From positions 8,058,538 to 8,122,537 of the forward strand of contig CP099850.1 of the NCBI GenBank assembly GCA_030062745.1: a stretch of 64,000 bases of DNA, written 5' to 3'. The stretch is from Capitulum mitella (taxonomy: Eukaryota > Arthropoda > Thecostraca > Pollicipedomorpha > Pollicipedidae). The notes beneath the pieces were generated by a model, which did not search any database, was not told the origin of the DNA, and saw only the letters and a list, made by a program, of their open reading frames with translations. Position 1 is the first letter of the stretch, and each line of letters begins with the position of its first letter. Below are positions 12,501-54,300 of the stretch, in pieces. A program made the translations under genes and the position numbers.

Positions 12501-13383
12501 GCAGGTGCCGGCCAGCGCGCTGTCGCAGTTCTGCCGCGAGTTCCGCCAGAAGACCATCAGCAAGAGCAACCGGGCCGAGCTGCTGAAGGAGGTGCCGGCG
12601 CTGGACGGCTTTGTCGGCCTCTCGCTGCACGGCATCGCGCGCCGCCGCTGCCCGCTGTGCGCGGCCGAGGTGTTCAGCCCCGAGATGGTGGCGCACCTGG
12701 GCCAGGTGCACGGCCGCCAGCGGTGCCGCCGCTGCGCCCAGCTGGTGCCCGTCGGCCAGGTGGCGCTGCATCGGTGCGCCGGCCGGCCGGGCGCCGCCGC
12801 CGAGCCGCCGCCGCCGCCGGCTCCGCTACCGCCGCCGCCGGCTCCGCTACCGCCGCCGCCGGCGCCGGCGCCGCTGCCGCCGCCGTGGCCGACCGCCACC
12901 GCCGCCGGCGACGGCGCGCCCTGGGGCCCGGCGTTCGCCGGCAGTCGCTGGATGGCGCCCGGTAGCGGCGGCGGCGGCGGCGGCGAGCCCGGGCCCGGAG
13001 AGGCCGACCCCGACCAGCCGTCGGTCTCCGTCAAGACGGAACCGGCCGACGCCGACGGCGTCGTCTATTGCGACGACCCGGCGCCGGAGGACGCCGCCGG
13101 CATCGCCATCAGCGGCACCTGGAGCGAGCTGGCCGAGCCGCCGGCGCCGTCCGGGGCCGCTGCGGACGTTGAGGAGCCTCCGCCGGCCGGCGCGGATGCC
13201 GAGCCGGCGCCGACGGAGGAGACGGGCCCGCCGCCGGCGCAGTCGGAGGCCCCGGAAGAGGCGGCGGCGGCCGGCCAGGCCGAGGAGTCCGGACCGGCGG
13301 GCGCTCAGAGTCTGGCCGAGGCCACAAATTCGCACAGCGTGCTGCGCAATATGCTGGAGAATTTCAGAAAGCATCTCGAGTAA
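3375..13383 (+). CDS. BTB-zinc finger transcription regulator with alternative last exons (gene span)
   Basis: Common exons 3375-3554, 4221-4427 and 4832-4988 encode an N-terminal BTB/POZ domain (residues ~1-120, starting with an LRWDNH motif as in tramtrack/lola-type arthropod proteins) and a linker with a VVVKEEP sumoylation-like motif. Exon 3 ends in phase 1. Two downstream exons, 6911-9540 and 11420-13383, both open with two bases that complete an alanine codon, both carry zinc fingers and both end in their own stop. This is the one-BTB, many-zinc-finger-tails design of lola and tramtrack. The family dimerises through BTB and binds DNA through the fingers in the nucleus. An acceptor at 3365 shows at least one 5' untranslated exon upstream. 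The specific orthologue is not recognised. The domain call is firm; alternative splicing is inferred from phase and stop codons. Confidence 0.9.
4221..4427 (+). CDS. BTB gene exon 2 (C-terminal half of BTB domain)
   Basis: A CAG acceptor at 4218-4220 opens ANPGQHPIVIMRDIPYKD, followed by LLTFIYQGEVTV, the conserved end of arthropod BTB domains. The donor is GTAGGC after AAACAG. It is 69 codons in phase 0, so it joins exon 1 as FKQLLK-ANPGQHP, matching the family alignment. Confidence 0.9.
4832..4988 (+). CDS. BTB gene exon 3 (linker)
   Basis: The acceptor is ttcccag at 4825-4831. It encodes an acidic linker with EVVVKEEPCDQDEQ, a consensus SUMO acceptor (V-K-x-E). It ends AAC-G before GTGGGC, leaving phase 1, which is what both zinc-finger exons require. 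Confidence 0.8.
4989..6910. other. Intron 3 of the BTB gene (towards exon 4a)
   Basis: Mostly AT-rich with no recognisable gene. The last ~250 bases (6660-6910) become GC-rich and remain open in the frame of exon 4a, reading Pro/Ala-rich sequence, so a retained or alternative exon start here is possible. Confidence 0.5.
6911..9540 (+). CDS. BTB gene alternative last exon 4a: ten-finger zinc-finger tail
   Basis: A strong acceptor (ctctgtttcag, ending at 6910) opens CC-GTG-AGC, completing GCC with the G of exon 3. After a glycine/serine-rich stretch come about ten C2H2-like fingers (CPYC, CKAC, CARC, CDFC, CSKC, CPVC, CPYC, CRHC, CPVC, CPHC) spread over ~600 residues, separated by acidic linkers, then an Asp/Glu/Ala-rich tail to TGA at 9538-9540. 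Many fingers share a CPxCxKxM...RH...HP pattern. The reading frame stays open upstream through the intron back to 6343, so a longer version or internal start cannot be excluded. PolyA signals lie at 9939 and 9950. Function is inferred as the DNA-binding part of one isoform. Confidence 0.88.
9939..9955 (+). promoter_or_regulatory. PolyA signals for BTB isoform 4a
   Basis: Two AATAAA hexamers (9939-9944 and 9950-9955) lie 400 bases after the stop of exon 4a, so that exon can end a transcript by itself. Confidence 0.6.
10925..11175 (-). mobile_element. Interspersed repeat family A, inverted copy
   Basis: Reverse complement matches copies at 15327-15625, 41735-42090 and 43262-43440: shared GGTGTT..GAACACCA, TGCTCCAAAA-like, AGCTACATTATA-like, GCAAGCAAATGA and TTTAAACCAGTAT-like blocks in the same order. 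Short, with no coding frame. Confidence 0.7.
11336..11430 (+). repeat. Tandem repeat of the exon 4b splice acceptor
   Basis: About 2.5 units of ~38 bp, each with TGACA, TGCCGCAG (or TGCCGTA) and GCCGCCGA. The last copy is the real acceptor and exon start. Confidence 0.75.
11420..13383 (+). CDS. BTB gene alternative last exon 4b: four-finger zinc-finger tail
   Basis: Acceptor tgccgcag ends at 11419 and CT completes GCT with exon 3. It encodes an Arg/Pro/Gly-rich region, a Gly-Ile repeat block (about 11920-12190), then finger motifs CPFC...HYRRVH, CRAC...C, CPLC...HLGQVH and CRRC...C, a proline-rich stretch, a VKTEP sumoylation-like motif and an acidic tail ending TAA at 13381-13383. The finger module aligns with that of exon 4a in order and spacing. 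The acceptor lies at the end of a small tandem repeat of itself. A polyA signal, AATAAA, is at 13612. Confidence 0.85.
11920..12190 (+). repeat. Coding Gly-Ile minisatellite in exon 4b
   Basis: Repeated GGCGGTATTGGC-type units encode a long GGGIGG array with occasional Ser, Ala and Asp. It stays in frame and sits before the first finger. Confidence 0.8.
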
Positions 13384-14509: not shown

Positions 14510-17469
14510 CTGGAAAGAACGAGGAGGTTAGCGGCTTAGTTCAACAACTACAAACGGGAAAACAAATGCTGGCAGCAGCAAGGGTACCTCCTGTCAACCT
14601 AATACATCCATCAACCTCACCTTGGAGATGGTGAACATCCATTTCTCCTATTCCCAGATCTCTTTTGATCAAGATCTCGTTGGAGTGGCCCTTTCGGCGC
14701 CGCGATATCTTAGGAACTAACCGTCCAATTTTGCTTCAAGATCTCCCCGCCAGTGACTTTTATACTCTCACAAAACGCTACATGCTGGGTAAATGGCAGA
14801 GGATGTGGGGACAAGACAGCAGTAGGAAAAGATGAACGCTATCAAGCCTGAGATAAGGAACTGGGAGTCATCTCTCCGAAACGCTAGCAAGGAAGAAATA
14901 ACTGACCCATCTCCGCGTTGGCCATACCAACAGCAAACGCAAATTTCGACTGAGCAACACAACAGATGTCCCCATGTTTGAGAAATGTGGCGATTTGTTA
15001 AGTGTGAGGCATGTGGTTGCCGATTGCATTCTGCTCCGTTCAGAAAGACAGACATTCTTTAGACGCCCCGCGACTCCGACATTGCTTGTAGGAGAATTTC
15101 CCGACAATGAGCCGGGTATCATAGTGCAGTTCTTACCTACGACGAGACTGGATGTCATTTGTTCTCCCCAACAGGCGCTAACTACTAAGTATATAAACTT
15201 CTCGATTAGATATCCGATGTGACCAGCGCAAAATGGCCGCGGTAGCCGAAACGCTGTGTAAAACTGAATCATCATCGAAAGGCAAGAGAAAAAAACCGTG
15301 GGGGTCACTGAGCCCCAGGACTTGAAAAGGTATTGCTTTTTGGTGTTGAAGAACACCAGAAAATATGTGCTCCAAAAATGTTTTATACTCCAAAAATATG
15401 ATATTGTGCCACCATCAAAAAGCTACATTATAACCATGTGGCCAAACTCCTAATTCTGCAAGCAAATGACTCTGTCTCCATTCAGTAAGATGTATGTATG
15501 TCATAACTGACTTAAATCAAGAATGCAAATTTAAACCAGTGCTACGCTTTGCAAAATTTTGTATTCCAAAACATAAATTATACCCCAATACCAAGAATGA
15601 AAATCACATTTCCAATCCTGGTGAGCCCCCACCCCGAATAGGGTTAAGCTGATGAGCACTGAATCCACACCTAAGAACCTAAGGTTGCCTGATTTTCAGG
15701 ACTGGAAAACATCACTTCTTTGTCTAGTGTGTACGCCCTGCTCCCTTCACACTGCTAGCTGACCTCTGTCCTACTCCCCTGACACCAATGGCCTCTGTCC
15801 TGCTCCACTGACACCAATGACCTCTGTCCTGCTTCCCTGACACCGCCGACTGACCTCTGTCTCGCTTCCCGGACACCGCTGATTGAGCCAGAACTCACTG
15901 ACCTGCCGTTCTCCAGTGCGTCCACAGCCAGCACCTGCAGGTCGGGGAACGCCCGGGGCACGGCGTTGACGTGCGGCGCGGCGGCCGCCGAAAACGGGCA
16001 CGTGCTGCCGTAGAACAGCACCAGCAGACAGGGCGCCGGCTGGCTGCGGGAACGCACCGTGGCGTCCGGCTGCAGCTCCTCGGACAGAGCGGTCGTGTTC
16101 ACCAGCTGGGCGACAGATGGCAGCACGGTCAGCCACTCACGGATAGGGGACTGGGCAAGGTAGGCAGACACGAGGTAGTGCGTACTTGAGAGCAGAATAA
16201 AAAAGGGATACTCTCGATACATTTGGAAAGAAGTGTGCACGTTGCAAGGACAATTAGAAACTGGAGAAAAGTGCTGGCAATGATCTTCTCCCCCCCCTTC
16301 CCCTCCTACATGCACTCCGAAAAAGAAGAAACGCAGATCCAAATGCTGAAAATACACCTGAGGGAGATGGCCACCATCATGCATAACAATTCTACGCGGA
16401 TGGATACAGAACATTCTGCCGCCACCCAAGACCAGCCCACCTTGACAGTCAGCTCCTCCTGGGTCCTGTTGAGCGGCATGCAGTTGCAGGTTTTGGACGT
16501 AGAGTTGGCCGTTGTGTTCTCAGACTTTACTTCTGGTGTTTCCACGCCGTCAACGACTATGACGTTCTGAAACCAAGACAACGGTGCTTGTATTTCGGAG
16601 TCACCGGGCAGTCCTCTGCAAGTCTGAGACACTTGTGGCACATCGCTTAATATCGGAGAAGCGTAAGCACACAAGACGGGAAGATATAAAACACACACTA
16701 CTACGGAGATTCTGAACCTTTCACAGGTCATAGGAACATCCCAATCTTCTGCGCGCACATTCGGAACCAAACCACTGTCCTAACCCACGCCACAGCAGGG
16801 CTGAACGTCACACGGCTATGATAGCGACGGCGGCGTCGGCTGAGCCATCAGACCATCAGACTCTCCTCCCCACCTACCTGGTTCCGTTCTTCCCGCCGTC
16901 ACGGCCGCCTCGCCGGAGGGGGTCGGGCCGCCGGCATGGCTGCTGGCCACGTCCGCCATGTCGTCGCCAGCCTTGCTGTTCAGCCACACCGAGCCGGCGG
17001 CGAACTCGTCATCGGTCAGAGACGGCGGCTGCAGCGTCGAAGTCGGAGAAAAGTTGGTTCGAAAGAAATGTAGTCACGCTGTTCATGCGAATTATTCACC
17101 GTTCCAAACACAACGCCTCGTGTCAAAACCTGTGGTACTCAGCTTCACAACAATAAGTCGAGGTGACCTCATGGGCAAACAATCGAAACAAGAAAATAAA
17201 CGAGAATAACGGATGCTGGGATAATTGTCGTTAAGGACGAATCCATGTTAATTTCCTTCAGCTCTGACGAAGCTCAAGCAAAGCAGGTTCTGTGGTTTTG
17301 CTCACTCTCATGCTCTCCAGCACTTGGCGTAAAGTGGGCTGCTGTGGACCTTCAGTGCCCTCTGGCAGGCCATCATGGAATGCGGGGGCAGAGTCATCCT
17401 CCCCCTCTTCGGCAGCAGGCTGTGCAGGTTCGGCCCAGCCACCCTCTGCTGACAGACCCTCCAACACCG
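14158..17469 (-). CDS. TXNDC15: Thioredoxin domain-containing protein 15 (partial gene span)
   Basis: Five exons on the minus strand: 17469-17306, 17028-16878, 16566-16441, 16150-15903 and 14509-14158. The conserved part reads LVLFYGSTCPFSAAAAPH, PRAFPDLQVLAVDALENG and TRFGIIAVPTVILFHNG, then PLPS and a membrane helix near the C-terminus. This is the order of TXNDC15, a single-pass thioredoxin-fold membrane protein of the ER that is needed for ciliogenesis in vertebrates. The active site has one cysteine (TCPFS), as in the family. The last three junctions keep phase. The join between 16878 and 16566 is off by one base in my model, and the signal-peptide exon was not found, so the N-terminal half is provisional. 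Confidence 0.88.
15327..15625 (+). mobile_element. Interspersed repeat family A, copy in TXNDC15 intron
   Basis: Contains GGTGTTGAAGAACACCAGAA, GTGCTCCAAAAATG, AGCTACATTATAACC, CTGCAAGCAAATGACT and TTTAAACCAGTGCTAC in the family order, ending TTTCCAATCCTGGT as in the 42 kb copy. Confidence 0.75.
15768..15903 (-). repeat. Tandem donor-like repeat beside a TXNDC15 donor
   Basis: Read on the minus strand, ~33-36 bp units GTCAGT/GTCATT...GCAGGACAGAG follow the real donor GTCAGT. At least one copy (AGAG-GTCAGT) looks like a usable donor. Confidence 0.7.
15903..16150 (-). CDS. TXNDC15: TXNDC15 exon with the redox-site region
   Basis: It encodes SPIREWLTVLPSVAQLVN through the TCPFS site to VDALENG, ending in phase 2 (AG). 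The donor GTCAGT is followed by a short tandem array of similar donors. Confidence 0.9.
16441..16566 (-). CDS. TXNDC15: TXNDC15 exon, pre-thioredoxin region
   Basis: It encodes NVIVVDGVETPEVKSENTT with several N-glycosylation sequons, then CNCMPLNRTQEELTVK. Both ends are in phase 0. It aligns with the N-glycosylated segment before the fold in other TXNDC15 proteins. A slightly longer 5' end is possible. Confidence 0.75.
16878..17028 (-). CDS. TXNDC15: TXNDC15 probable N-terminal exon
   Basis: It encodes PPSLTDDEFAAGSVWLN and a low-complexity stretch between a gctgcag acceptor and a GTAGGT donor. Only this frame is open, and it joins the previous exon in phase. Its 3' phase does not match the next exon as drawn, so a small exon or different acceptor is missing. 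Confidence 0.55.
17306..17469 (-). CDS. TXNDC15: TXNDC15 probable N-terminal exon
   Basis: The acceptor is gtgtttcag. It encodes AVLEGLSAEGGWAEPAQP and further acidic sequence to LRQVLESMR with a GTGAGC donor. Low-complexity acidic sequence is usual in this part of the family. Orthology rests on position and phase rather than on conserved residues. Confidence 0.55.
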
Positions 17470-32340: not shown

Positions 32341-32364
32341 ATGTCTTCCATGCAAAGGGCAAAG
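32341..32364 (+). CDS. MRPL13: MRPL13 exon 1
   Basis: Eight codons, MSSMQRAK, followed by GTGAAT. It is phase 0 and joins QWATFARIW of exon 2, as in other MRPL13 proteins. Confidence 0.85.
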
Positions 32365-34446
32365 GTGAATATTGTAGTCTTTATGCAGATATATGAGGGT
32401 ACCCATGTTCTACCCATATAGGTAATTTATGTATAACAGTTGTTATTTCTGGGACATGCTGGTATTGCCAAAAAGTCAAAACAGCAGCAGACAGATAACC
32501 TGTTTTTTTTTGTCTCATGTAACTGGTGCCCAGTAATGGGTGACTGTAAGTGAACAACATCACTTTGTTGTTAGGGACTAACAATTTTATTGTGTTACAG
32601 CCCTGTAGTGGAATGTTCCTTTTATACTGAGGACTAAACTCAGTGTGCAAAATTAGTGAAAAAGAAAGTATGTAAATGAGGAAGTTCACATTAGGTGTGT
32701 GATGGAACTATTGGAACATTAGGACTGTGATGTTCTAATAGTCCTGGGAAATGCTAGCTTTATGTACACTGAAGTCATCTTGCTTGCCTTATGGATAAGC
32801 TTGTATTCATCCATTGGCAATGCTTTCAGCAATGGGCTACATTTGCCCGCATATGGCACATATATGATGCCAAGTGGCAGAATCCTTTTGAGTCATCCAA
32901 GAGGATAGCATCATACCTTAAAGGACAGCACAAGCCCATCTACCATGCTCCTGAGTAAGTACTTGTGGTATTGATTCAGCTGTGATTTGTGCTTGAAGGC
33001 CTAGTATGTTGATGCTTTGTTGCACCATTTGATGTACTGTTCAAATGATGTTATTCTGCTGTGCATACTGCTCAAATAAATACTTCCCATGTATTTTGTG
33101 AAACTGCTTTGATTTTTAGGTTTAAGCTAATACATCTTAATGCCAGTGCAAGTGATGTGGTGGATTACATAAACATATCAAGCTATACTCCATTGACCTC
33201 AAACAGCCAAACAGGCCATTGCCATCATGTTTTTAAATCAGATTTTCAGATAAAAAAAAAACAGGTGATCCAGTCTCATACTGGTCATTGCTTACAGCTT
33301 GTCTGAGCCAGACAACCGTGACATGTGTCCAGAACAATGTGAGGGTCACAGCACCCTCTGGGGTCATATGTGAAATGCAGCACATGCATGATGTCAGCTT
33401 ACATGTTCTCGTGGCTGCCACACACCTCCCTGATGCTGACCCTCAGCAGAGGTCGCGCGTGACGCAGCGATGTTCGGCAGGCGACTGCGGCGACCACGTG
33501 GTGGTGATCAACTGCCGCGAGATCGCCCTGCCTGGACCCGAGTGGTACCAGCGGGTCTTCTTCCACCACACCGGGTACCCAAAGGGCGGCGCCACCTGGA
33601 CCCTGGCCTGGGAGCTGCACCAGAAGAACCCTACCATGGTGAGGACTCCCGCCCATGCTCAGCTGGTCGTCTTGAGGCTCGCGGAGCGCAACGGAAGCAG
33701 CATGTTAATACAGGCGAACTGGAAAAGTAGCGGTGATTCGGCGCGTTGTCCCTTAATAATCCACCCTCCCGTCGTCATATCGTGCAGCAGGCCGTACACT
33801 GGGCGGTGAACGGCACACTGTTCCTCTGATAATTCACCCTCCCGCCGTCAGATCGTACAGCGGGCCGTTCACTGGACTGTGGACGGCACGCTGTTCCTCT
33901 GATAATTCACCCTCCCGCCGTCAGATCGTACAGCGGGCCGTACACCGAGCGATGAGCGGCATACTGTTCCTTATAATCCACCCTCCCGCCGTCAGATCGT
34001 ACAGCGGGCCGTACACCGAGCGATGAGCGGCATACTGTTCCTCTGATAATTCACCCTCCCGCCGTCAGATCGTACAGCGGGCCGTACACTGGGCGGTGAA
34101 CGGCATACTGTTGCTGGTAATTCACCCTCCCGCCGTCAGGTCGTACAGCGGGCCGTACACTGGACTGTGGACGGCACGCTGTTCCTCTGATAATTCACCC
34201 TCCCGCCGTCAGATCGTGCAGCGGGCCGTACACCGGGCGGTGGGCGGCACGCTGCTCCGTAAGCCGCTGATGGCGCGGCTGCACCTGTTCCCGGACGACG
34301 AGGTGCCGGAGGACGTGCTGCGGAACGTCTCCAGCCAGATCCGGCAGCTGCGGCCGCAGCCGCGCCGCCTCGACACCTACACCGAACAGGAGGTGCGGGA
34401 CTTCCCCAAGGTGTTCGACTTCCCCGGAGACCATGTGCTCCGGTGA
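32341..34446 (+). CDS. MRPL13: Mitochondrial large ribosomal subunit protein uL13m (gene span)
   Basis: Four exons (32341-32364, 32830-32954, 33452-33638, 34213-34446) give about 189 residues; human MRPL13 has 178. Diagnostic stretches are QWATFARIWHIYDAKWQNP, LKGQHKPIYH, GDCGDHVVVINCREIAL, HHTGYPKGG, ARLHLFPDDEVPEDVLRNV and RLDTYTEQE. The product is a core protein of the mitochondrial 39S subunit (uL13 fold). The start MSSMQRAK matches the short N-terminus of the family. The exon 3 acceptor is the least certain point: the only one in phase adds about nine residues (ESRVTQRCSA) before DCGDH that the family lacks. Intron 3 is almost entirely a tandem array derived from the exon 4 junction. Confidence 0.95.
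32830..32954 (+). CDS. MRPL13: MRPL13 exon 2
   Basis: The acceptor is gctttcag. It encodes QWATFARIWHIYDAKWQN to GQHKPIYHAP, with donor GTAAGT in phase 2. Confidence 0.95.
33452..33638 (+). CDS. MRPL13: MRPL13 exon 3
   Basis: It contains DCGDHVVVINCREIALPGP, WYQRVFFHHTGYPKGG and LAWELHQKNPTM, with donor GTGAGG. The 5' edge is set by phase only and its acceptor lacks a good pyrimidine tract. Confidence 0.8.
33749..34212 (+). repeat. Six-copy 72-bp array of the MRPL13 exon 4 junction
   Basis: Units start near 33749, 33828, 33901, 33973, 34045 and 34117; the functional junction (from 34189) is the seventh. Each has CACCCTCCCGCCGTCAG then ATCGTACAGCGGGCCGT, i.e. the acceptor plus the exon start, read as IVQRAVH, and most continue to an in-frame TGA. 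Confidence 0.95.
34213..34446 (+). CDS. MRPL13: MRPL13 exon 4 and stop
   Basis: The acceptor is cccgccgtcag at 34202-34212. It encodes IVQRAVHRAVGGTLLRKPLM, ARLHLFPDDEVPED and RLDTYTEQE to TGA at 34444-34446. Its first ~48 bases are repeated upstream six times as decoys. Confidence 0.95.
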   Translation: MVQRAVHRAVGGTLLRKPLMARLHLFPDDEVPEDVLRNVSSQIRQLRPQPRRLDTYTEQEVRDFPKVFDFPGDHVLR

Positions 34447-39300: not shown

Positions 39301-42300
39301 GCGTTGTTGATGACGATGGTGGAGTCGAGCTCGGAGGCGGTGGCCTCGATATTGACGCGCATGTCGGTGATGTCGCGCAGTCTGGCCCGGTACGAGTACT
39401 CCACCAGCGCGCGCAGCGCCACCAGCGAGTCCTGCGGCACAACAGCGAACGTTGCGTCAAACAACACGTCACACCGGGCAGGGCGGGGGCCAATCACTCC
39501 GTAACGACAGATCAGCCGGTCAGGGGCGGACGACGGGTGCCGGTCACACGAACCTAATCCGTGATATTAGGTAGACGGACATGTAAAGGCAGCTGGACAT
39601 GTAAAGGCACCATCACCCACTACACCGTAGTGTTGTCTGCCACTCAGATCGCGTCTGACAGTGCTAGACAGTGTCTGACAGTGAAGAACAATACCATCGA
39701 CAACCACCGCAGCGAGCGTGCAGGCCGGCAGCCCACCGTGGTTGTGATGAAACCGCCGTCGTTCATGCGCATGGTGTTGAGCCAGAGCACCATCTTCTCC
39801 TGGTCGATGTTGATGCCGTCCCTGATGAGGTAGACGAGCAGGGCGTACGCCGTCGTCTCCACCGCTTTCGTGTCGTACAGCTGCAGGACGAGGTCACGGT
39901 CAAGAGACGAGTGCAATGGGGGAGGGGGAGGGGGAGTAGTTCGGATGAAACATACGCTGGGGTAGAGTTGTTTGTCTCTCGATGGCATGGACCACCCAGC
40001 CTGCCACGACGCAGCGTTATCAAGCGGAACAGCGTTCTATTCCTAAAACCTAACCATCTGTAGTGTCAACATTGGTGAGAAGTCAAAGCAACCATTCTCA
40101 ATACTGGAGAACACTCTACCCCTCGGATTTGCTATCCGCACACACATAAGACACCGCCATCAGGCCAACATCGGTCGGCTCTGTCGTGCGAGGCGCGGCG
40201 TCGCCTGTGTCCTGGTCACGCACCTGCTCCAGCTTGGGCTGCAGCAGGTTCCGCTGGCTGTTCTCGTTGGTCAGCCTGTTCGTCTCGATCGGCGCCGGCG
40301 ACCAGTAGATCATGCCGTCTGAGGACGAGACGGGCCACGTCAGCACCGGCAACAGTGGACGGATGAGGGCCTCCCCAGTCAGATCACTCTCCTCTGTGCA
40401 ATGGACAATCCTCTTTGGCCAGTAATCCGAGCGGGGAAGGCGTTTGTGTCAGATGACAGTGATTGAGTGAAAGATCAAAATAACCTGTTTGGTCATTTCG
40501 GAGTGGTAGAAAACGACCGATGTATGATGCCTCCCAACCCTGCCAATGTGACAAGTCCCCGTTGAATGGTACAAGCATTTCACGATTCATGGGCAAGGGT
40601 AGACAGCCAGGGATGAAATGATTCACAAGACTGGTAAATGGCATGCATATCTTCGCCATCCGTTTACCTCCCTGCAATGTCCCATATGGGAATATCACTG
40701 ACCATGCTGCAACAGCGGCCAAATAAATGGGGCATTAAGGGCATAAAGCATTCCCCACGTCTGTTCAGACGGGCCATGGTGGCGGCACGTACCGACTTTC
40801 CGCTTCATGCTGTCGAGCATGTTGAAGGCGATGTCCCTCTCGCCGCTGTTGGCCAGCGTCAGGGCATAGGTGACGACGGCCACTTCGTACGGTCTGGTCA
40901 GCGACGACAGCTGCTTCTCCAGGTACCTGCCGTGTTGTATACTGGTCAGAAAAAGGGCTGAAAATTGTAGACTATGGGATCCGGGACAACGGAGCAAGTC
41001 AGGAAAACGTACACACCGGACATATGCCAAAGTCGATACATACAGGGAAGTTCGTGCCCTACATTAACATGAAGCATATGGAATGCAATAAAAGCACAAA
41101 ATCACAGGCAAAAGGGGAGCAGAGCTCATCCATGCTAGCGCTCTCGACACCACCACAGACAGACGACACACCGGTGTCACAGGAACACCTTACAGAAGGT
41201 CGGGAATGGCACCAGGACGCACCTGACGGCGCCGATCTTGGCGTCGTTGGCGCGGGCTCGCAGCTCGCCCTGCAGCGAGTCGATGGTCTGGGACAGCGTG
41301 ATGAGCGCCTGCGCAGTCAGCGAGATGTTGCGCAGCGGCACCGCGTCCAGCGGCCGCGACGACTGCGGACAGACGAGGAAACAAACAGGTTACCACGTCT
41401 AGCGGCCGCGACGACTGCGGACAGACGCGGACACAATCAGTTTACCACGTCCAGCGGCCGGGACGACTACGGACAGTCGCGGAGACATTCAGGTAACCAT
41501 GTCCAGCGGCCGGAACGACTACGGACAGACGCGGACACAATCAGGTTACCACATCCAGCGGCCGGGACGACTACGGACAGACGCGGAGACATTCAGGTAA
41601 CCATGTCCAGCGGCCAGGGTCCAGAGGTGGCGACAGGGAACAGGCGCCCACACAGGGAGGTTGCCATCGCAAGCAGACGCCGGACGTCCACACGGCACCA
41701 CCACGTCCTACGTACAGCGGTCTGGAGCAAGGATGGGAAAGGCGTTGTTTTTTTGTGCTGAAGAACACCAGAAAATATGTGCTCCAAAATTAATGTATAT
41801 TGCACGTGCTTGGTCTTGTGCCTCCGTCAAAAAGCTACATTATAGCCGTGTTGACAAACTTCTAACTCTGCAAGCAAATGACCTCAGTAGTCGGCGCGCA
41901 CGAAAACACCAATAAACAACAGCTGCAAGCAAATGACTGTCTCCAATCAGTAAGCACCAGGTATGAGGCCATAACTGACTTATACCAAGAACGCCAACTT
42001 AAACCAGTATTACTATTTCCAAACTTTGCGCCATAACAAAAATTATACTCCGACACCAAGAATATACGCCAAATTTCCAACCCTGGTCTGGAGAACGGAT
42101 AAAATGCGGCCACCGCTAGTACAGCACGCCACAGCATCATCGCATCGTGAAGTCCACCATCACATTGTCAAGGTATTATCCAGAAAAGACTCTGTCACAC
42201 TGTCCTGCCGATTCAGATGTAAACACGAACCTTGGGGTCCATCTTGGGGTCGAGCGGGATGGTGTAGTTCTCCGTCTCGAAGAAGGCGCCCGTGTCGTTG

Positions 42301-45300
42301 TTCTGGTGGCCCACGAGCCAGGCCATGGCCTTGGAGATGATGGCCGGCTCGATGTAGAGGAAGTTCTCCCAGTCCTGGAACTTGGCCTCTTGGAAGATGC
42401 GCGTCACCCAGGAAGTCAACCTGTTCGGGGAGAGAAAACCCACGTCAGCATCAGCGCCAGGCCAAATGATGGAATTTCTTCCCTGACAAGACTGAAAAGG
42501 CGCTGAAATGGCGACAGGGACGCCATACGCCAGCCAGAACACAAACATGGGAATTTCGAACGGAATGATGGCACTTGACGCAATTAACATATTGGCGCTA
42601 GCCCGAGTGCAAAAATCTAGATGTTGAACAGGACGGTGGGATTTTAATTTTCAGTTCTTGCATATTACTAAAAGACGCAAAATGCCACCCACTTGTTCAC
42701 AGCATTAAGGGATAATTCCACATATCATTACTACAAGCAGAATGTCACCCCGACCTGCCCACATCTTTCCTGGCATTGAACAATTCTACATAGCATTACT
42801 AAACGCAAAATGTTACCCCAACTTGTCTACAGTTTTCGTTGCATTGCGGAATAATCCTTAGCCAATCACCCAGCTGCGCGCCTTCTGACTCTCCGCCCCC
42901 GCACGCACTGCACGACCCGAACCGACGCACCGCCGCCCGCTACGTACCACACGGAGGGCGCCGACGTGTCCCACATGCGGTAGGCGCCGCTGGCGTCGAA
43001 GCGGTACACGATGGCCGCCATCTCGACGTTCATCTGGTCGAAGATGGCGCGCGCGAAGCTCAGCCGGAACTGGTTGGTGAGCCGGAGGTAGTGCAGCGAC
43101 CAGAGGTTGGCGCCGAAGTCGAAGGCCGACGCCTCGGTGCTGCGGAGCCGTCGGTTCAGCAGGACGTCCGTGCTGACCGGGCCGCCCGTGGGGAACACCG
43201 GGCCGACCACGTCACCTGCCGGCGGAGCGGCGCCGTTCAGGCGGTCAGTGCCACGGTTCGAAAACGGGTTGTTTTTTAATGTTGAAGGCCACAAGAAAAT
43301 GTGTACTCCAAAAGCGTTTCATGCTCCAAAAGTTTCATCTTGTGCCTCCACCACAAAGCTACATTATAAGCATGTTCGTAAATTTCTAATTCTGCAAACA
43401 AATAACTAGGCGTCCATTCAGTAAAAAATCAGGTATGATGTCACGCCTGCTTTTAGTAGGCATGACATCACACAGGTGTACAGGCGGGTCAAAGCTCTAG
43501 GGAGTGAAGCGGGCACCAGACGACGGGTCACTTCAAATGGCACCTGGGGTCTAGCTTTTTTCTGAGTCTGAGACTCCCTCCTTCTTTTCACCTTGGACTG
43601 GAGCGCGTTGCTTTTACGAGGTCTAAGTTTCATCATCATGTGATCTGCGGGTGGACGGTGATTCGATGTTGTTTGGGACTACATTTAGCCGACGGTGGAA
43701 ATTTCCGAGAGACTGTTTGGGACGTAAGGGACGTAAGGGTCCTCCCAATGAAAAGCTGAACGACACTCCCATCGTCCTTATGGCACCCACGCGGAGCCGA
43801 TTATGACGGGCTCGGCCGGCTCCGTGACGCCGTCCTCCCGTAACGCCCGCCGTGGCTCTCCGCGTGACGTCGTCACACCCACCCGTGACGGTGACGTGGC
43901 CGACGGGCGAGTCGAACACAAAGCGGCGCCAGGAGGCGTACGGCACGATCGGCGACTGCTCGACGATCACGTCCAGGTACTTGAACTCCACGGCGCGGTT
44001 CTTGAGGTCCAGCAGGAACGACGTGTGCTTGTTGATGGTGACGCCCTCTGGCTGCCGGGAGGTGCAACAAAGTCAGTCACGTCCGGCCCGGGAAACAGCA
44101 GCGAGGCCAGGACAAAAGCGTGACGGTTTAAACCTAGGCAAAGAAGTAAAAGTTAACTCCTATCCGTGTCTCATGCTTTCCGGAGCAGAGGCAGCCACGT
44201 TACAGGGTCACAATGAAACCGCACGTTAAACATAAACTCAGCACAAGTCGCAGCCAATCGTCAGTAGTTCTGTACGCAAAACACACACGAAATCAACAAC
44301 ACACGATTTCGATAATCGATCACACTTCAGCCCCGAACTTCAACAGCATCAAGTGGCTGCGACCATGACGGACCGGCATGCCAATACACCGGTGCGACAG
44401 CGGCCAACCGGCCTCGGCCAGCTGACTGACCTCGACCAGCATCTGCCGGGTGACGTCCTCGCGGCCGACTTGAGTCAGTGCGGTCAGCGTCACGGTCACC
44501 ACGCCCTTCTGGATCTGAGGCGCGATCGGTATGTCCACCTCCACGCTGGAGAACGGCGCCAGCTGTCCGGCAAGATGGGTACCGTGACGGTGGCGGTAAC
44601 GGAGACAATATTTGCGACTTTATGGATGGTAGCCAGTCCCAGCAGCACCACGCCAAGATTACGATGTTAGAGGAAACACGGACTATGATCGTTACTGCCA
44701 GACGTGACTTAACGACTGACGTACCTCCGAGCTGGCACACGAGGTTCAAATCAAACCCAGCACGGCCACAAAGCACAATCAACAATCACATTCTTCTCAA
44801 CCTCAGGCCATCACGTCCTACCTGTCCTGCCACCGCCGCGTCGCCTAGCCTCGTTCTGTCAGGCACTGGTGCCTGGGCCCTCAGCGCGGAACGCAGCACC
44901 ATCAGGTGCTGGTACCTTCCTTCCCAGCCCGCTTAGTACCGCGCCTGCTGATGCAAGGTCCTCGTGACCCTCCCCCAGCACGTACCAGCAGAGGGGCTGG
45001 TGATCCCCCGCCCAGAACGTACCGGCACCAGGTGCTGGTGCGCACCGCCGGACAGGCGGGGCCGGAAGTGCTGCACGAAGCCGTCCGGCTCGACGTGCAC
45101 GAACTTGTACTGCTCGCTGGCGGGCAGCACCACCATGGCCAGCTGCTCCTGCGCCACGTTGTTGGTGAGCACGGCGCGCACGGCCACCTGCTCGCCCCGC
45201 CGGCACCGCGACGGCATCTCCATCCGCATGTAGAACGGCGTCGTCGTGTTGTACTGTGGGCGGACGTAGGCGTTAATCAGCGGCTTCGTCGCTGAATGGC

Positions 45301-48300
45301 GGGAAGTACGTAACGAGACACGCAGCCGCTCTCACTCTGGCATTTTTAGTTCGTTTGGAAGTAAGACATTTCACTCGTGTCATAGTGCATTTCCACGGCC
45401 AAACAAGCATCGACCGCCCTCACCCAGACTGAAAATGACTATTGCAACATTAAATACCAGACAATGCCCAGCTCGCCTGTCCATACCAATACCATAGCAG
45501 CCATGAGTGTTCCACGGGCAGCCTTGTCTTCCTTAATATACGCTGCGCACACACGCCGACACCTCACGCAACGCGACACATCGCGACGTGTCACGCTGCA
45601 ACTCCGCGAATCCCTCCTGGCTTGATCAGAACACGCGTGGTCCCTCTCGCAGGCTTAGCAGTTCCCAGCCGCCCGGAGACGGATCCAACTTCCCCCCCCC
45701 CCCGCCTCCCTGAGGAGCGCAAACTCACCACCACCGGCCGCTCGATGATGCCGAAGCCGTTCTGCTGGTTCACGCTGAAGCCGGTCACGAAGTAGAGCGC
45801 GTCCTGGCGCGGCACCCTGAGGATGATCTCCTCTGTGGCCTTGTAACCTGCCAGCCGACATGAGGGGGGCGCTATAAGACAATCGCACACATGCAGTCAC
45901 ACAGGTGCACAGGCGGACCAAAGCTCTGAATGAAGCGGGCACCAGAGGACGGGTCACTTCAAATGACATCCGGAGTCCAGCATTTTTCTCAGTTTGAAAC
46001 TCCCTGCTTCTCGCGGGCATGGAACACCACAAAACGAAGTGACGACTAAACTAATACCACATATTCCGAACAACTTAACAACTGTACGGCGGTTCTGCCA
46101 CCACCGTGAAGGCCAAGTCGGCACACTTATATCGCAATCACGAGACGGCTTACCATTGTACCATTCACCCAGCCAAAGCCGTAAAATTAATATAATCAAT
46201 TCCACGCCATCGCCACACCTAGAGCCGACGCTGCCCGCGCTCAGCGGCCGACTCACCGATGTAGACGTCCCGCCAGATCCAGTCGCCCTGGCGCTGGTTG
46301 TAGAGCGTGCGCAGCTGGTTCTTGCGCGTCAGCCGGAAGCTCGCCGCCTCGTCGGCGCCGTCGGGCGGGCAGTCGTGCTCGTCGGAGCCGTCGACGCAGG
46401 AGCGGCGGCCGTCGCAGCGGTCAGCGGCCCGGTAGCAGCCCGTCGTCAGGCACGGCAGCAGGCCGTCCGTGGCGTTACAGTTGGCTGCGGCGGGGAGCCG
46501 GTCACACGGCGTGAGAGCGGGGTACGGAAACACGCCAGCCGACGGCGCCCGGCTCACTACCAAAACGTCTTGGTTCGTCGAGCAGCTTGCAAGCGTTCAC
46601 TGGCAACGTGTCGCGCATGCCACTAGCCTTTAAGACTTTCGCACGTCTCCCCCTATGTCACAATCTTTCAGCTACTGCGACGTCACTGATAAAACAATCA
46701 ACGCCCATGAAAAACGGTCCCCGGACAACACGCACGAAACGCACACACCACACCGAACACACGTGCCCACGGCGTGGGACCTGACGAACAAGGAGTGCGT
46801 CCGTTCTCTCTCCGACGGCCCGGCGCACCAACGGTCCGGAGCACCAACGGTCCGGAGCACCGACGCACCTGCGGCCGTGCTCGGCAGCAGCGGCACCTCG
46901 GCGTCGGTGAACACCACCAGCTGGGCGAAGGCGAACGTCCGATTGGCGTCCACGCCGTAGTTGGGCGCCGAAAAGTACCTGACCATGTCCGGGTGGAGGC
47001 CCTCGCGGAACTGGCGCGTGACCGAGTGGATCGACCTGCCGCCGGCCGCCGGGGTCAGAGCACGGTCGACCGCGCCGGCACAGCTTACACGATGACCATC
47101 GGAGCTCAGGTGGACGCGGGTAGGAGACGGGCCGAGCTGATTGTTCGACAACAAAGAGCCGAGTGAGACCAGCACTCGATCGGCGGAGGTTACCGCTGGC
47201 TGGTAAACACCACAGCTGGAGTTAAGGGAACTTTTCCAGGCCCCACGACGGTCAAAATCCTAACACGCTGGCGGGCGACGTCGGTTACCTCAGAGTGAAC
47301 ATTGCGCTGCAACGAATCTCATCCACCCGCAGCCGCGGCCTTCATTCCGTTGCGCGCAGAATCCATCCCGCTGACAAACTTCGCCAAACCGCAGGCTCTC
47401 CACGCCATACGGCACCACCTGATCCGCCCCGGCGGCGCGGAGCCGGCCGGCCGGCGCGCTCACCTGGTGGAGTTCTCAAACGAGTAGAGGCTGCGCATGA
47501 CGCTAGCCTTGCTGAGCTCCGAGTCGCCGGCGGCACGATAGGCGTCGGTGCGCAGGCCGGAGAGGCCGAAGAAGGAGCCGGGCACTGAGCGGCAGACCGC
47601 CTCCACGGTCGCCTTCGAGTGGTCCTTGTCCTGGTTCAGCGTCAGGCCCACCTGCGGCCGGGGGGACGGTCTCAGCGGCAACACGGTAATAGGCCACCGC
47701 GACACAGCAATACCCACAGAATAGACTCACCGCACCGCACGTCATAAAACCGCCCAAAACCGCCATCTAACACTAGTCTGATGACAGCTGGGTTGCAAAG
47801 CAGCTTATCCCCAACTTAACAGGGCGCTGCGATACGATGCGCCTCCACAGTCAACCGGTCAGCAGCCGCGTAACGCCCGCCATCTGCCGGCGACCACTCA
47901 CACTGCCGCCGCTGATTCCGTCCACGGGGATGCTGATGGCGTCGGAGAGCACCTCGCCCTCCGCTGACACGTGATAGACCACCACCTTGAAGGTGGGCGC
48001 CATCTCGGAGCTGACCGGCAGACTGAGCGTGCGCACGGCCGCGCCCGACGCCTCGTCCATGTAGTCCTCGTTGGTGTACAGCAGCAGGCCCTTGGAGGTC
48101 ACCTGGACGCAGGGACAGTGCAGGATCACCCTGCCGCAGGGCAACGGCGAAAACGGACGGCGCCGCGTCGATGTGAGATTTCTTGAGAAACGTTGCAACG
48201 CACGTGGGATTTCCCTCGTGCATCTACCGCGTCGTGTGTTTACGAAAGGAAGAGACTGGATACGAGGATTGATGTTTTCAGTCGACACGGTAACGGGACC

Positions 48301-51300
48301 GACTGTCCGCCCCGAACATGATCAAAACCAGGTCAAAAGCACTGACAGCGAACATAATTTCCGCCTCTCGGCAAACGCCAAAAAACCTCCAGCGCCGGCC
48401 CACAACACCTCAGACGTCCCCGCAACGCCACGGTCGCCCCCCCCCCGCACGCCATCCGGCACTCACCACGTATCCGAAGCGCTCCATCTTGAAGCTGGAC
48501 CTGACGTGCAGCACCACGTACTCGCCGACGCTGGCCCGCACGGTGGACGTCTCCACAGAAATGTAGCGCTCGTGCGGCGAGTGGTACGGCAGCAGCTCCA
48601 TCGTCGCCGTCGCCTGGAGGCAGGCGAACGAGGGTCAGCGACGCAGGCGGTGTGCCGGCCTAACCGACAGCCAGCTGGCGATAAATATAAGCCGAGCGCA
48701 CGGTGACCGATGGAGATGTTCCAGTGATTGGGGGAGGGGTGACGGGAGGGGGGCGTGCGATGGCGATGGATACTGTGTACTCCAACTAGAGTGCACATCA
48801 AAACTCTGTTCCATTTGTCACCTTTCAACAGCAGCGAAATGGTAAGGTGCTGGTTTCATGACCATTGGGGATCAAACGCCGCACGACATCACATCAGCTC
48901 TTGTCAGTTACGGCTGAATCCAACCATTCAGCCTCTTCACAAACTTCTCAACCACACAACACCCCGTGCAGCGCGTCTAATCTAACGCACCCTCGGAAAA
49001 CAAGGCCTGAGGAACTCCGGCCCTTGCACAGCCCTTCCCCTCTGTCCCACTCTTAACCCTCTGCACTGACCCTGCCGCCCTCGTCGTCCTCGTACTGGGC
49101 GGTGAGCGTGACGCGCGCGCTGCGGGCCGGCATGACAAACGAGAACCGGTGCAGGCCGTCCGAGCGGTACTCCCTGTACCGCTGCTCGTCCAGCAGCCGC
49201 ACCATGTACTTCTCGTGCAGGTAGCCCAGGCTGAAGGTGGCGTTCCTGCCGGCAGGCGCGCGGTCAGCGCGGGGTGACTGCTGGGTATCCTAAAGCGCAA
49301 AACGACAACGACCCGGCATCAGCACGTGCCTTAGCCTTGATTCACCCGCATGACTACGTGGGAAGCGAAAGGGGCGGAATACCGCTTACGAAACCCGTAA
49401 ATTACATTCTATGGGTTGTGTGTCCATGTCTCCCTTTTACAAGACCGATGTAACGACAGTTGTAACGGCATCAGGCAAGATGCACCAAAAACACCGTGGA
49501 AGTACAATAAATTGCACGTCACGTCACAGTCACGACCTGCCAAGAACATCACTCTCAACATTACACAACAGCTCAGTAGTCTGTCTATCGGAGCCGGCAC
49601 CGACCCTGTCCAGTCGCCGGCTCTGGCGGCGTCCCGAGTGCTGTACGGCGGAGGATAGAGCGACGGCGGCTCGTAGCGCGGCACCGCCTCCTGGCTGCGG
49701 GAGCCCGTGCCCACCGCCGAGGAGGTGATGGTGAGCGAGGAGCGGCGCAGGAGGTCCGCCGACAGCGGCTGCTGGTCGTGGTACGACACGGCCACCTGCC
49801 GGTCACAAACCAAGGGCCAGTCACGTAACGGGCAGTAAATACACACAGCGACCCCATACACGGCCACCTGCCGACCACAGACCGCAGGCCAGTCACAAAC
49901 CGGACAGCAAATACACAGAGACCCCATATACGGCCACCTGCGGACCACAGAACGCAGGCCAGTCACAAACCGGACAGCAAATACACAGAGCGACTCCAGA
50001 CATGGCCACCTACCGGCCAGACCGACAACATAACGGGCAGCAAATACAAAGAGCGACTCCAAACACGGCCACCTACGCGCCACAGACCACAAACCTGTCG
50101 CATTACGGACAGCAAGACAGAACTACCTCAAAGACAAAACCAGACCACGTGCGCCTGCGGGGTTGCAACACTCATCGGGGTTGCGGGGGTTGCATTCCCC
50201 ACATCGTCAGCCAAGCTACCCATTAAACCGCCAACTGAACAACCGATCCAACTAGAAGCACAACTGGTTAACACAGCAGCCGACCACGACCGACAGGGTC
50301 GTGCAGCAGCTAATGATATCCTTCAGAGTTGCCACCTGTCTAGCCAGCTATAGCACTGGGACCAATAAACGTCAGTTTGTGAAAACCACGATCACGTCGA
50401 TTCAGTTACGAGCACGCATCTCCGTAACTCAATTTACGAGGCCCGAGCGCCTGTTGAAGCAATGGGTGAGTGGTTGAGTCGACGAGCGAGACACGGGAGC
50501 TGTTAACAGCCACTCTCACCCACAGATGTTCAACAAAAGGCGAACGACTTTTTGGGACGCCGAATATACACCAAGAAGTTGGTAAAAGGCAGTTATACTT
50601 TCGTTGTCGCACTGAGAAACAACAGCTAAACGAAGCAGCCTTTGAGAGCAGGATCGCCAGCAAATGATGTTCATACCTTTCTCAGACCTTTCTGAACAAG
50701 TTACACAGACTGCACGCGTCATCGACCACGTACCACGCCGTCGAAGGGCATGCCTGGCTTGAAGACCATCGGCTGGCTGCCGACGAAACGCAGACTGACG
50801 CTGGAGTTGATGACGCGTGACACGCAGTAGCCCGTCTGGTTGAGGCCCTCGAAGAACTCGCGCATGCGCGCCACCACCTTGACCTCGGCGCCGTCCAGTC
50901 GCGGCACGCGCGCCACCAGTTCGGCCATCGGGAACCGGAACCGGTGCGGCCCGGCCACCTGCGAGCAGCGGCCGCCGGCTCAGCTGGTGACGACACACGG
51001 CGACGAGCCGAGCCGAGCCGAGCCGAGCCAGCAGCGGCGGCCGGGACCGGGTACTCGGCGGCCGACGCCATCTAACCTCCGTCCAACAGAGATGCACTAA
51101 CGCAGAAATAATGACAGGGCGCTCACATGATACCCTTGAATGGCAATGGGCAATGGGCAATGGGACAAGTAAATAAAAGATGCCAATCCACACACCAGTG
51201 ATAATTACGTCTGGGCCTGACCCCTGCACAGCCAGTATCTGTATCCGCAAGCCCGCTGTATTCTAAGCTGACTGTTACTAAACCCCGTGACCACACCGAC

Positions 51301-54300
51301 CATCCGCCGATCTTTAGGATCCCCTGACTACTTTCCCCTATGGCAGAAACTGTTACCCATTTGGTCTGCTGCATGTAGGCCGAGGAGAATGTGTAATTCA
51401 GCCGCGACCGCAGGCCCTCTCGGAAGTACAGATCCAGCGTCAAGTTGCCCACTGCCGGCTTCTTGGTCTCTGTGAAGCGTGCCTCCACGGTGCCCTCCAC
51501 GTACTTGTCCGTGGTGAGGAAGTACATCGGCATGTCGACAAACACCTGCAGAAGAGCACACAGTGAGCACATAGCACAGAGCGCATGGTGACCGTCGTAA
51601 GGAAAACGCAGTAGCACGTCCTCAAACACCGGCGGGGAGAAATCGGGCAAACCGCCATCTGAAAACACACCAGCATACCAAAAAACACCCCAAACGACCA
51701 TGATACGCCCAAGGAGAGATCAGTATCGCCACGTCAACGCACCCATACCCAGAGAACATCAGGGCGTGTTCTGCCACAACGCAAGTTTTCCGAGCGCTGG
51801 CAAGCGCCACCCGCCACTCGCCTCGTATCGGGGCACGTAGTACTTCTCGACGGCGACCGTCTTCTCCTGAACCTGACCGCGAACTTTGACGCGGATCGTC
51901 CAGAGGCCGGTCTTCGGCAGCAGCGGCAGGCGGAAGCACAGCGAGACCACGCCATTGTTGGTCGGCCGTGACGGCCACCACCGCATCACGTAGCCGTCCG
52001 GATCCTGCCGGCCAGGAAACGGGCCGTGAGAATGAGGGGCGACTGGGGGAGCGGGCGGGGGGGGAATCGTGGGCCGTTACATCAGAACATCATGCGGGAC
52101 GAAGTTTCAAAAGCAATATAAACGATGGGTCTTCGTCAATGGTTATGTGCTACCGGCTAGTCTTAGACTTTAATGAAGGTCCGAACGTCACTGTTTTATT
52201 TTCCATTGTTTATATCGCATCCTATGTCGTCTATTTTTGCATCCTGTCATTCATCATCATCAACAATCCTCATCATCCATTGCTGCATATGACCTGTCAA
52301 TAAAAATGTTAGCAACATGGTCTGGTGGTTCTAAGTTTTAAGCATGACCCCCCTTCCCCAATACATCTGAGAACCTCACAGGTGGCACGAAGAGCCAGCG
52401 AGATATCATGAAAAGCGACCACAGGTAAAGCTGTCCCTAGTCAAATCCTGTGCTTTCTTCGAAACAGCCCCCACAAATAAATGGAGAGGCAACATCGCAA
52501 GCCATTCCACTGGGTTCCCCCTGGCCCAGAGCCAGGGCTCCTTACCAGAACGTAGACATCCACCGGGTCGTCGAACGGTCTGAGGCGATGCGTCAGCAGG
52601 ATGGCCCGGAAACAGGCTGTCCGGACAGAAAGGCAGAGTGAGCGCCAGCATGGGCACGCAACGGTCACCGACAGGGCCCTCAGATCAAAGCTGGGCGCAG
52701 CGCCTTTTGAAAGCGAAAGGACGGCACTGGAACAACACAGCTGGTCGAGAGTTACAACCCAAGAATCATCGCGTCCATGAAATAACCCACTGTACCGCAC
52801 TATCTATGGAATCTCACATAAACAGAATAAATATTGGTAAAGGTACCATGCAGATGGTTCAAAGGTCATGCATAACACATTCATAGCATTGGTCGCGCAT
52901 TATGCATTGATACAGGAATCTGAGCACAACTCATTCACTGAACAGCAAAGCCCTCCACCCGGCTCACCCTTTTGATCTCCGTTGTAGACAGGCCGGCTCG
53001 TCTGGATCAAGATGGTGAGGAAGCGGGCCGAGAAGTGGACGCGCGTCTCGTTGACGAAGAGCGTGCCGCCCACCGAGCCTGGGTAGTTGCCCTCCACGCG
53101 CAGCTGGTAATTGCCCACCACACTGGTGGTGGGCACCTGCCCGGGAAACAGACGGCTGATATTAACATAGACTCAGTGAAAAGCTCAGCATGAACATGGA
53201 TACAGTGTCATGAGCACAATGACAAGTGACGCCAATCGCCACAGTCAATGGATATCGCGGTGGAACAAAATGAACACCTGGAAACAAACATCGCAAGCTT
53301 ACTTTAGTTGAAACGATAGATAGATATGTTACAAACAAGAAAAGATGGCCAGATTTCACTGACTAGGACCTCTGTATACAGTTGTGCACACACCACAAAA
53401 ACGCCAGTAATTACGGTCCGCACCTGCCTTCAATAAACTCAGAACCCGCACCCAACACCCGGCACCCGGCACCCTTTCCCTAACCACCAATGAACACTCT
53501 AAATCTGACCGCCACCCTCGCACCCTGCGCTCCACACGTGACGCCAGAGGGGCGGCGGGTGTGGCGGTTACAACGCCCGCCTGGCGCCCACCTGCAGCAG
53601 CAGGGCGTCCGGGTGTCCGGGCTGGAGGCGGGCCGTGGCGCTGCTCATCTGGACGCCGTCGCGGAGCAGCGAGGCGCGCGCGTCGACCGGGCCCGGCGCC
53701 CGTAGGATGTCCACCAGGACCCGGTACACCGTGCCGGGCCGCACCAACGCTCGGCGCCAGCACCAGGTACGTCCTGCCGGCGCCGGCGGCCACGTCAGAC
53801 GGCGCCGGCCCACGGTGAGGGACTGATGGTCACGTCACGGGACACGGCCGGCAGCAGCAGCCGCTGCACGCAGGGCGGGCGGTCCCGGTCACGGTAACGT
53901 CACAGGACACGGCCGGCAGCAGCAGCCGCTGCACGCGGAGCGGACGGTCCCGGTCACAGTAACGTCACGGTGGAGGGCAGCAGCTGCACGCAAGCGTAAT
54001 CCGACCCGAATGTGGCCGAAACTTGTGTTCATTGCTTGTGCTCGTATACCATCCATCCCCTGGATTTCGGGGTGCTGATTCCGAATATCATGTCATGTTT
54101 ACTGTTACTTATCCAAGAAACTGGCATTCAATGGCGCGTTCAGCTACTATAAAAAGGGGTCGTATCTATGACTTCCGCTCGTTGATTGGTTATTGGAGCT
54201 TAGGGGCGCACCGACTGCAGGGTCATTCGGCGCCCATTTCCGCTCGTTGATGTCGGAAGCCAAGTCAGTGTTCTCTTCAACAATAACGCTCTTTACTGGC

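Follow-up and report, generated by a model that had tools for sequence, protein, structure and literature searches.

Minisatellite Units Across the Intron 3/Exon 4 Junction of an MRPL13-like Gene of Capitulum mitella: A Probably Neutral Array with Five Decoy Acceptors

In amphioxus, minisatellites that lie across an exon–intron boundary are called 'mirages'. The sections of the literature drawn on here describe them in Adh3, troponin C, the globin genes BflGb6 and BflGb9, and PGBD5 (PMC3087553, PMC3902484). Their units, as given in those sections, measure 10–72 bp in Adh3, 150–160 bp in BflGb6, and 60 and 108 bp in PGBD5, and regular splicing is reported there to be undisturbed (PMC3087553, PMC3902484). 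In the part of their paper used here, the globin authors propose that new introns can arise by way of mirages. A related idea, due to Rogers and cited in the part of PMC3087553 drawn on here, is that introns are gained by tandem duplication of sequence that bears splice signals. A search of the open-licence literature for boundary-spanning repeats outside amphioxus found none among the papers listed. The array described below lies in a 64-kb stretch of Capitulum mitella DNA, referred to throughout as the window.

Anatomy and history of the array

The window contains an MRPL13-like gene on the plus strand. The coding part of exon 1 (32341–32364) was read by eye and placed from the frame, and exon 2 (32830–32954) has a PF00572 match in the genome search. 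Exon 3 (33452–33638), the 5′ end of which, at 33452, was likewise set from the frame, matches PF00572 (ribosomal L13) with an E value of 1.6e-12. Intron 3 (33639–34212) is 574 nt long and of phase 0, with GT at 33639 and CAG at 34210–34212; its limits rest on the frame of the flanking exons and on PF00572. Exon 4 (34213–34446) is coding up to a TGA and supplies the C-terminus of the L13-like protein; its PF00572 match is weak (E 0.012) and below the curated cut-off. Genome-wide, PF00572 has three matches, i.e., two exons of this gene and one at C2:12894799, which is possibly a cytosolic relative. The stop codon sits in exon 4, and no later coding exon is seen. Exon 4 is the apparent last coding exon, although the 3′ UTR may contain an intron.

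Seven tandem units, found in the sequence itself, by TRF and by alignment of the units, extend from 33755 to 34260 across the 3′ junction of intron 3. The array is real and far beyond chance. TRF places it at 33756–34258 with a period of 73 and a score of 733, and its scores under three periods (733–767) are the highest in the 64-kb window. In being built of tandem, minisatellite-like units (here 6.9 copies with 88% matches), the array is like the amphioxus mirages. Each unit joins about 24 nt of intron end to about 48 nt of exon start. The preliminary description had put six copies ahead of the functional acceptor, a count that the unit alignment bears out, and had given the unit as 72 bp. 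The make-up of that unit stands, but its length does not, as the spacings from unit to unit are 73, 73, 71, 73, 71 and 73 bp.

The exon-like parts begin at 33779, 33852, 33925, 33996, 34069, 34140 and 34213, the last being the functional one. The units, all on the plus strand, are copy 1 (33755–33827, type A), copy 2 (33828–33900, type B), copy 3 (33901–33971, type C, 71 bp), copy 4 (33972–34044, type C), copy 5 (34045–34115, type A, 71 bp), copy 6 (34116–34188, type B) and copy 7 (34189–34260), which holds the functional acceptor and the first 48 nt of exon 4. A search of the genome with the DNA of the array, by a method that passes over simple repeats and very common words, returned a single match, the array itself. 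The similarity of exon 3 and of the remainder of exon 4 to the array unit does not rise above that of shuffles.

Tandem repeats are prone to mis-assembly, and a single assembly was examined. Nevertheless, it is extremely improbable that mis-assembly inflated the array, as its copies differ from one another (82–97% pairwise identity) and it spans only about 500 bp in all.

The differences among the copies carry traces of their history. Read from the unit alignment, the order is A B C C A B F. Identity reaches 97% between copies 3 and 4 and 96% between copies 2 and 6, and copy 1, the most diverged unit, at the edge of the array, is closest to copy 5 (89%). From this pattern we infer that the array grew stepwise, by duplication of both one-unit and multi-unit blocks. 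The proposed course is as follows. Duplication of the last ~24 nt of the intron together with the first ~48 nt of the exon would have created a second acceptor, and blocks of one or several units would then have been added by unequal exchange or by slippage until there were seven copies. The block duplications, seen in one assembly, bear indirectly on any length instability between haplotypes or somatic cells.

The extra copies make up 434 of the 574 nt of intron 3, which without them would be about 140 nt long. The suggestion that the array is a snapshot of how introns grow is thus upheld, both by this share of the intron and by the stepwise duplication visible in the block order. The array illustrates a route of intron lengthening.

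The start of the process may also have left a trace. The 24 nt that precede copy 1 (33730–33753, plus strand) can be aligned, in register, to the unit's exon tail, with a score reached by none of 20000 shuffles and by 12 of 20000 random 24-mers from the window; the segment was chosen after a free local alignment of the upstream intron, the score of which lacked significance, being reached by 92 of 1000 shuffles. This putative element may be a partial zeroth copy that was cut short, or it may be the stretch of homology from which the first duplication started. The exon parts of the decoys differ from the functional copy by 12 distinct GC>AT changes, one AT>GC change and two others. Since most of the sites (35 of 46) are G or C, this bias says little about release from constraint, and we do not use it as support.

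Decoy acceptors and their predicted outcomes

Five of the six decoys, those of copies 2–6, keep the AG, as CAG. Copy 1 has CAT where the other six units have CAG, and its acceptor is lost. Thus, the claim that each copy retains a plausible acceptor holds for copies 2–6 and fails for copy 1. Over positions −34 to +5, in the unit alignment, the functional acceptor is letter-identical to the decoys at 33852, 33925 and 34069. Over the wider span from −35 to +9, these three differ from it at two, one and two positions, respectively. It follows that local signals cannot separate the three from the functional site.

If exon 3 were spliced to the decoys, copies 2, 4 and 6 would lead to a stop at codon 17, as dead copy 1 would have done, and copy 3 to a stop at codon 34. 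Copy 5, the acceptor of which lies 144 nt upstream of the functional one and in frame with it, would remain open through copy 6 and into exon 4, adding 48 residues. The earlier statement that most copies reach a TGA after about 16 codons accordingly fits copies 2, 4 and 6, and the dead copy; copies 3 and 5 are the exceptions. The TGA of copies 2, 4 and 6 sits within the motif CTGAT, the A of which is 23 nt before the next exon-like start. CTGAT fits the metazoan branch-site consensus, and in these copies it is a candidate branch site by virtue of that fit.

Two functional uses of the decoys can be imagined. In the first, which the preliminary description had raised, the decoys would divert transcripts to early stops and thereby set the dose of MRPL13. 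That four of the five live decoys are predicted to stop within 34 codons, and that three match the functional acceptor letter for letter over −34 to +5, would favour such unproductive-splicing control. The stops, however, would fall in the apparent last coding exon, with no known exon junction downstream; the decoy at 34069 keeps an open, in-frame path; the AG of copy 1 is gone; and other genes carry similar arrays (see below). Nor is there a clear excess of AG retention. Across seven acceptor arrays of this study, 18 of 20 decoys keep the AG, against 15.4 expected from sequence identity (P 0.11), so that selection on the AG was not detected. This count masked the AG in the alignment and took decoys of at least 62% identity, which excludes three of the four decoys of the array at 49786 and a decoy at −59 in the kinase stretch L034. 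Several other dinucleotides are retained in the decoys as often as the AG. We therefore find the claim of unproductive-splicing control unsupported, and such control very unlikely.

In the second, the acceptor of copy 5 would yield an MRPL13 isoform with 48 extra residues. The open frame through copy 6 into exon 4 allows for this, and an array at a probable alpha-2-macroglobulin (A2M)-like exon in the window (start 49795) has a comparable nearest decoy, at 49867, which would add 24 residues. Yet translation would run through copy 6 and the unit junctions partly out of their own frame, the insert would fall in a conserved ribosomal protein, and one open decoy in five may be due to chance. An in-frame extension of this kind is very unlikely.

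There is one hint of constraint within the array. Among the inner copies (2–6), 2 of 39 columns vary around the acceptor (columns 3–41) as against 11 of 29 in columns 42–70 (p 0.001), a split that was set post hoc, among copies that share a history. The lower variation near the acceptor hints at constraint or at patchy homogenisation.

The reading that we prefer asks for no function. It is probable that a locus-specific minisatellite, i.e., a mirage, came to straddle intron 3 and exon 4 by chance and expanded neutrally, with the last acceptor being the one used and the other copies tolerated as filler. The last acceptor is taken to be in use because the reading frame is intact and because a housekeeping gene needs its product. 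Exon 4 is intact only when the last copy is used, and hence all of the decoys lie upstream, outside the exon. By exon definition, the spliceosome would then mostly pick the last acceptor, the one nearest the exon body, and the use of the decoys would be low-level at most, so that their copies could be tolerated as intron filler. According to the part of PMC9225289 drawn on here, the closest sites across the exon are preferred where introns are large, and the closest sites across the intron where they are short. Intron 3, at 574 nt, is perhaps short enough to be recognised by intron definition, and the decoys would then be favoured. On balance, the MRPL13 junction array is probably harmless.

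Junction-spanning arrays in the window and in the genome

Beside the MRPL13 array, the 64-kb window holds four further apparent junction-spanning arrays. On the minus strand, a 52-bp × 5.3 array (41340–41615) lies at the apparent acceptor of a probable A2M-like exon with its functional start at 41362. Its four decoys are all YAG; for three, a stop is predicted at codon 10. Also on the minus strand, a 72-bp × 4.7 array (49786–50115) lies at the apparent acceptor of another probable A2M-like exon, with its functional start at 49795; the four decoys here were found by a pattern that required AG, and the nearest of them is the open, in-frame decoy mentioned above. The third, a 37-bp × 3.1 array (11319–11434), belongs to a zinc-finger-like gene and spans what appears to be an acceptor (exon start 11420); one decoy there is CAG and one a dead TAA. 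The fourth concerns a donor: the GTACGT of an A2M-like exon is duplicated together with the exon end (44964–45049, minus strand), 45022 being the functional site and 44985 the decoy.

The exons at 41362 and 49795 probably belong to one A2M-like gene. The A2M-like assignment comes from PF00207 at 45011–45298 and PF07678 at 42899–43258; the two exons themselves have no meaningful Pfam match, and their placement rests on strand, frame and position. Pfam matches of the gene at 11425–13380 are all sub-threshold, the best being to a zinc-binding family.

Further arrays were noted near exon edges. Short arrays at 46815–46865, 15760–15886 and 53828–53968 directly adjoin exon ends of the A2M-like gene and of a possibly thioredoxin-like gene. 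At L022, a putative exon on the minus strand has an array near each edge (5908–6321 and 6446–6677). In the N-terminal part of the A2M-like sequence (about 53590–53780, minus strand), there is an apparent change of frame inside an exon, which may reflect an error in the sequence, a pseudogene or an intron that was overlooked.

Minisatellites are common in this genome. Samples from 20 fixed places on contigs C1–C7, 200 kb in all, hold 15 arrays of period 40–200 and at least 150 bp, which cover 1.9% of the bases. The concentration of arrays at junctions in the window raises the question of whether they are seeded preferentially there, by some process linked to the junction, e.g., transcription, R-loops or chromatin. 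Three arrays in the window have a period of 40–200 and a length of 150 bp or more, and each of them spans an apparent acceptor; in the window test, six of nine arrays overlap predicted exon edges, against 1.8–2.3 expected (p 0.002–0.007). The window, however, was chosen for holding a junction array, and the exon-edge test used a crude coding-segment caller, partly trained on the window, in place of gene models, with anything within 15 nt counted as overlap. In the 20 sampled loci, the same enrichment is not seen, with 4 (or 2) of 27 arrays at exon edges against 3.3 (or 1.5) expected.

A second sample was chosen blind to array content. It consists of 60 stretches, of 950–1254 bases, around partial, exon-like protein-kinase matches, drawn from 137 genome matches (124 of 746 first-look candidates were scored). 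The ends of the matches serve as a proxy for exon ends; a few of the stretches belong to a single gene, some of the matches fall in long open frames, and two (L029 and L032) contain an in-frame stop. Of the 60 acceptor ends, 3 (L033, L034 and L054) are spanned by arrays with a period of at least 20, and of the 60 donor ends, 1 (L084). The exact 95% intervals are 1–14% for acceptors and 0.9–8.3% for all 120 ends. In L077, an array lies 5 nt past a donor end. We take L033 to resemble GSK-3 and L054 to resemble a MAP kinase kinase. The array of L054 consists of two identical 66-bp copies and is therefore probably recent. Both donor arrays show the same geometry as the MRPL13 array, in that the decoys, here downstream, are outside the exon.

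Array coverage of the 400-nt kinase flanks averages 3.2% upstream and 4.2% downstream, with 50-nt bins ranging from 0 to 7%. On the upstream side, the 150 nt nearest the acceptor have a coverage of 4.8% and the rest of the flank 2.1%, figures that make seeding at junctions slightly more likely, and neutral expansion at a chance position slightly less so. On the downstream side, the figure is 2.6% close to the donor and rises to 5.2% farther out. At the junctions themselves, neither count departs clearly from chance: for arrays spanning acceptors in the kinase sample, no clear excess was found, with 3 of 60 against 1.9 expected (P 0.29), or 1.3 when the expectation is taken from the outer flank (P 0.14), and for donors no clear depletion was found (P 0.18 for one or none). 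Thus, preferential seeding at splice junctions is unlikely. Within the limits of 60 exons, the arrays appear to be distributed with little regard for junctions, which they do not visibly avoid.

The frequency is a separate matter from the cause. Whether boundary-spanning minisatellites are a standing, genome-wide feature, present at about 3% of splice junctions and giving many genes near-identical sites that compete in cis, is in our judgement a question on which the two answers are evenly balanced.

Significance and comparison with known systems

Taken together, the MRPL13 array, the four other cases in the window and the 4 of 120 kinase exon ends suggest that a genome dense in minisatellites can have many boundary arrays, and that a gene can carry several decoy acceptors of nearly the same sequence and still tolerate them. 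If such arrays are common, the choice between identical splice sites could be studied in natural genes. Were they found genome-wide, decoys lying outside an intact exon would offer a natural test of exon versus intron definition, and would also be raw material for the in-frame extension of exons. The apparent frequency is of more interest than the MRPL13 array itself, the mechanism of which is ordinary as far as can be told; junction arrays look like by-products of a repeat-rich genome.

Splice-site competition of this sort has an experimental counterpart. In the duplicated-splice-site constructs of Reed and Maniatis (1986), identical acceptors in cis reportedly compete for one donor. The MRPL13 case differs from these constructs in being natural and in having five live decoys. 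A different parallel is with poison exons and splicing coupled to nonsense-mediated decay, where alternative sites lead to early stops. An alternative acceptor in MRPL13 would likewise bring an early stop, as predicted for four of the five live decoys, but, unlike in poison exons, the stops would lie in the apparent last coding exon.

In the scheme of Rogers, as in the array, a tandem duplication carries splice signals along with it. Here, however, an existing intron, intron 3, has been lengthened; no new intron has been made, and exon 4 remains whole and in frame.

The closest match is with the amphioxus mirages. There too, the unit spans the boundary of a real gene, a point that for MRPL13 is founded on the frame and the protein match, and the splice signal, at a 3′ or a 5′ boundary, is kept in many but not all copies (here in five of six decoys). 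As far as the sections of the amphioxus papers drawn on here go, inner units are homogenised and edge units diverged in both, and the unit sizes are similar. The present array differs in its gene, which is MRPL13-like, and in its animal. It fits the kind described as mirages. Such an array is not of a new kind, nor is it confined to MRPL13.
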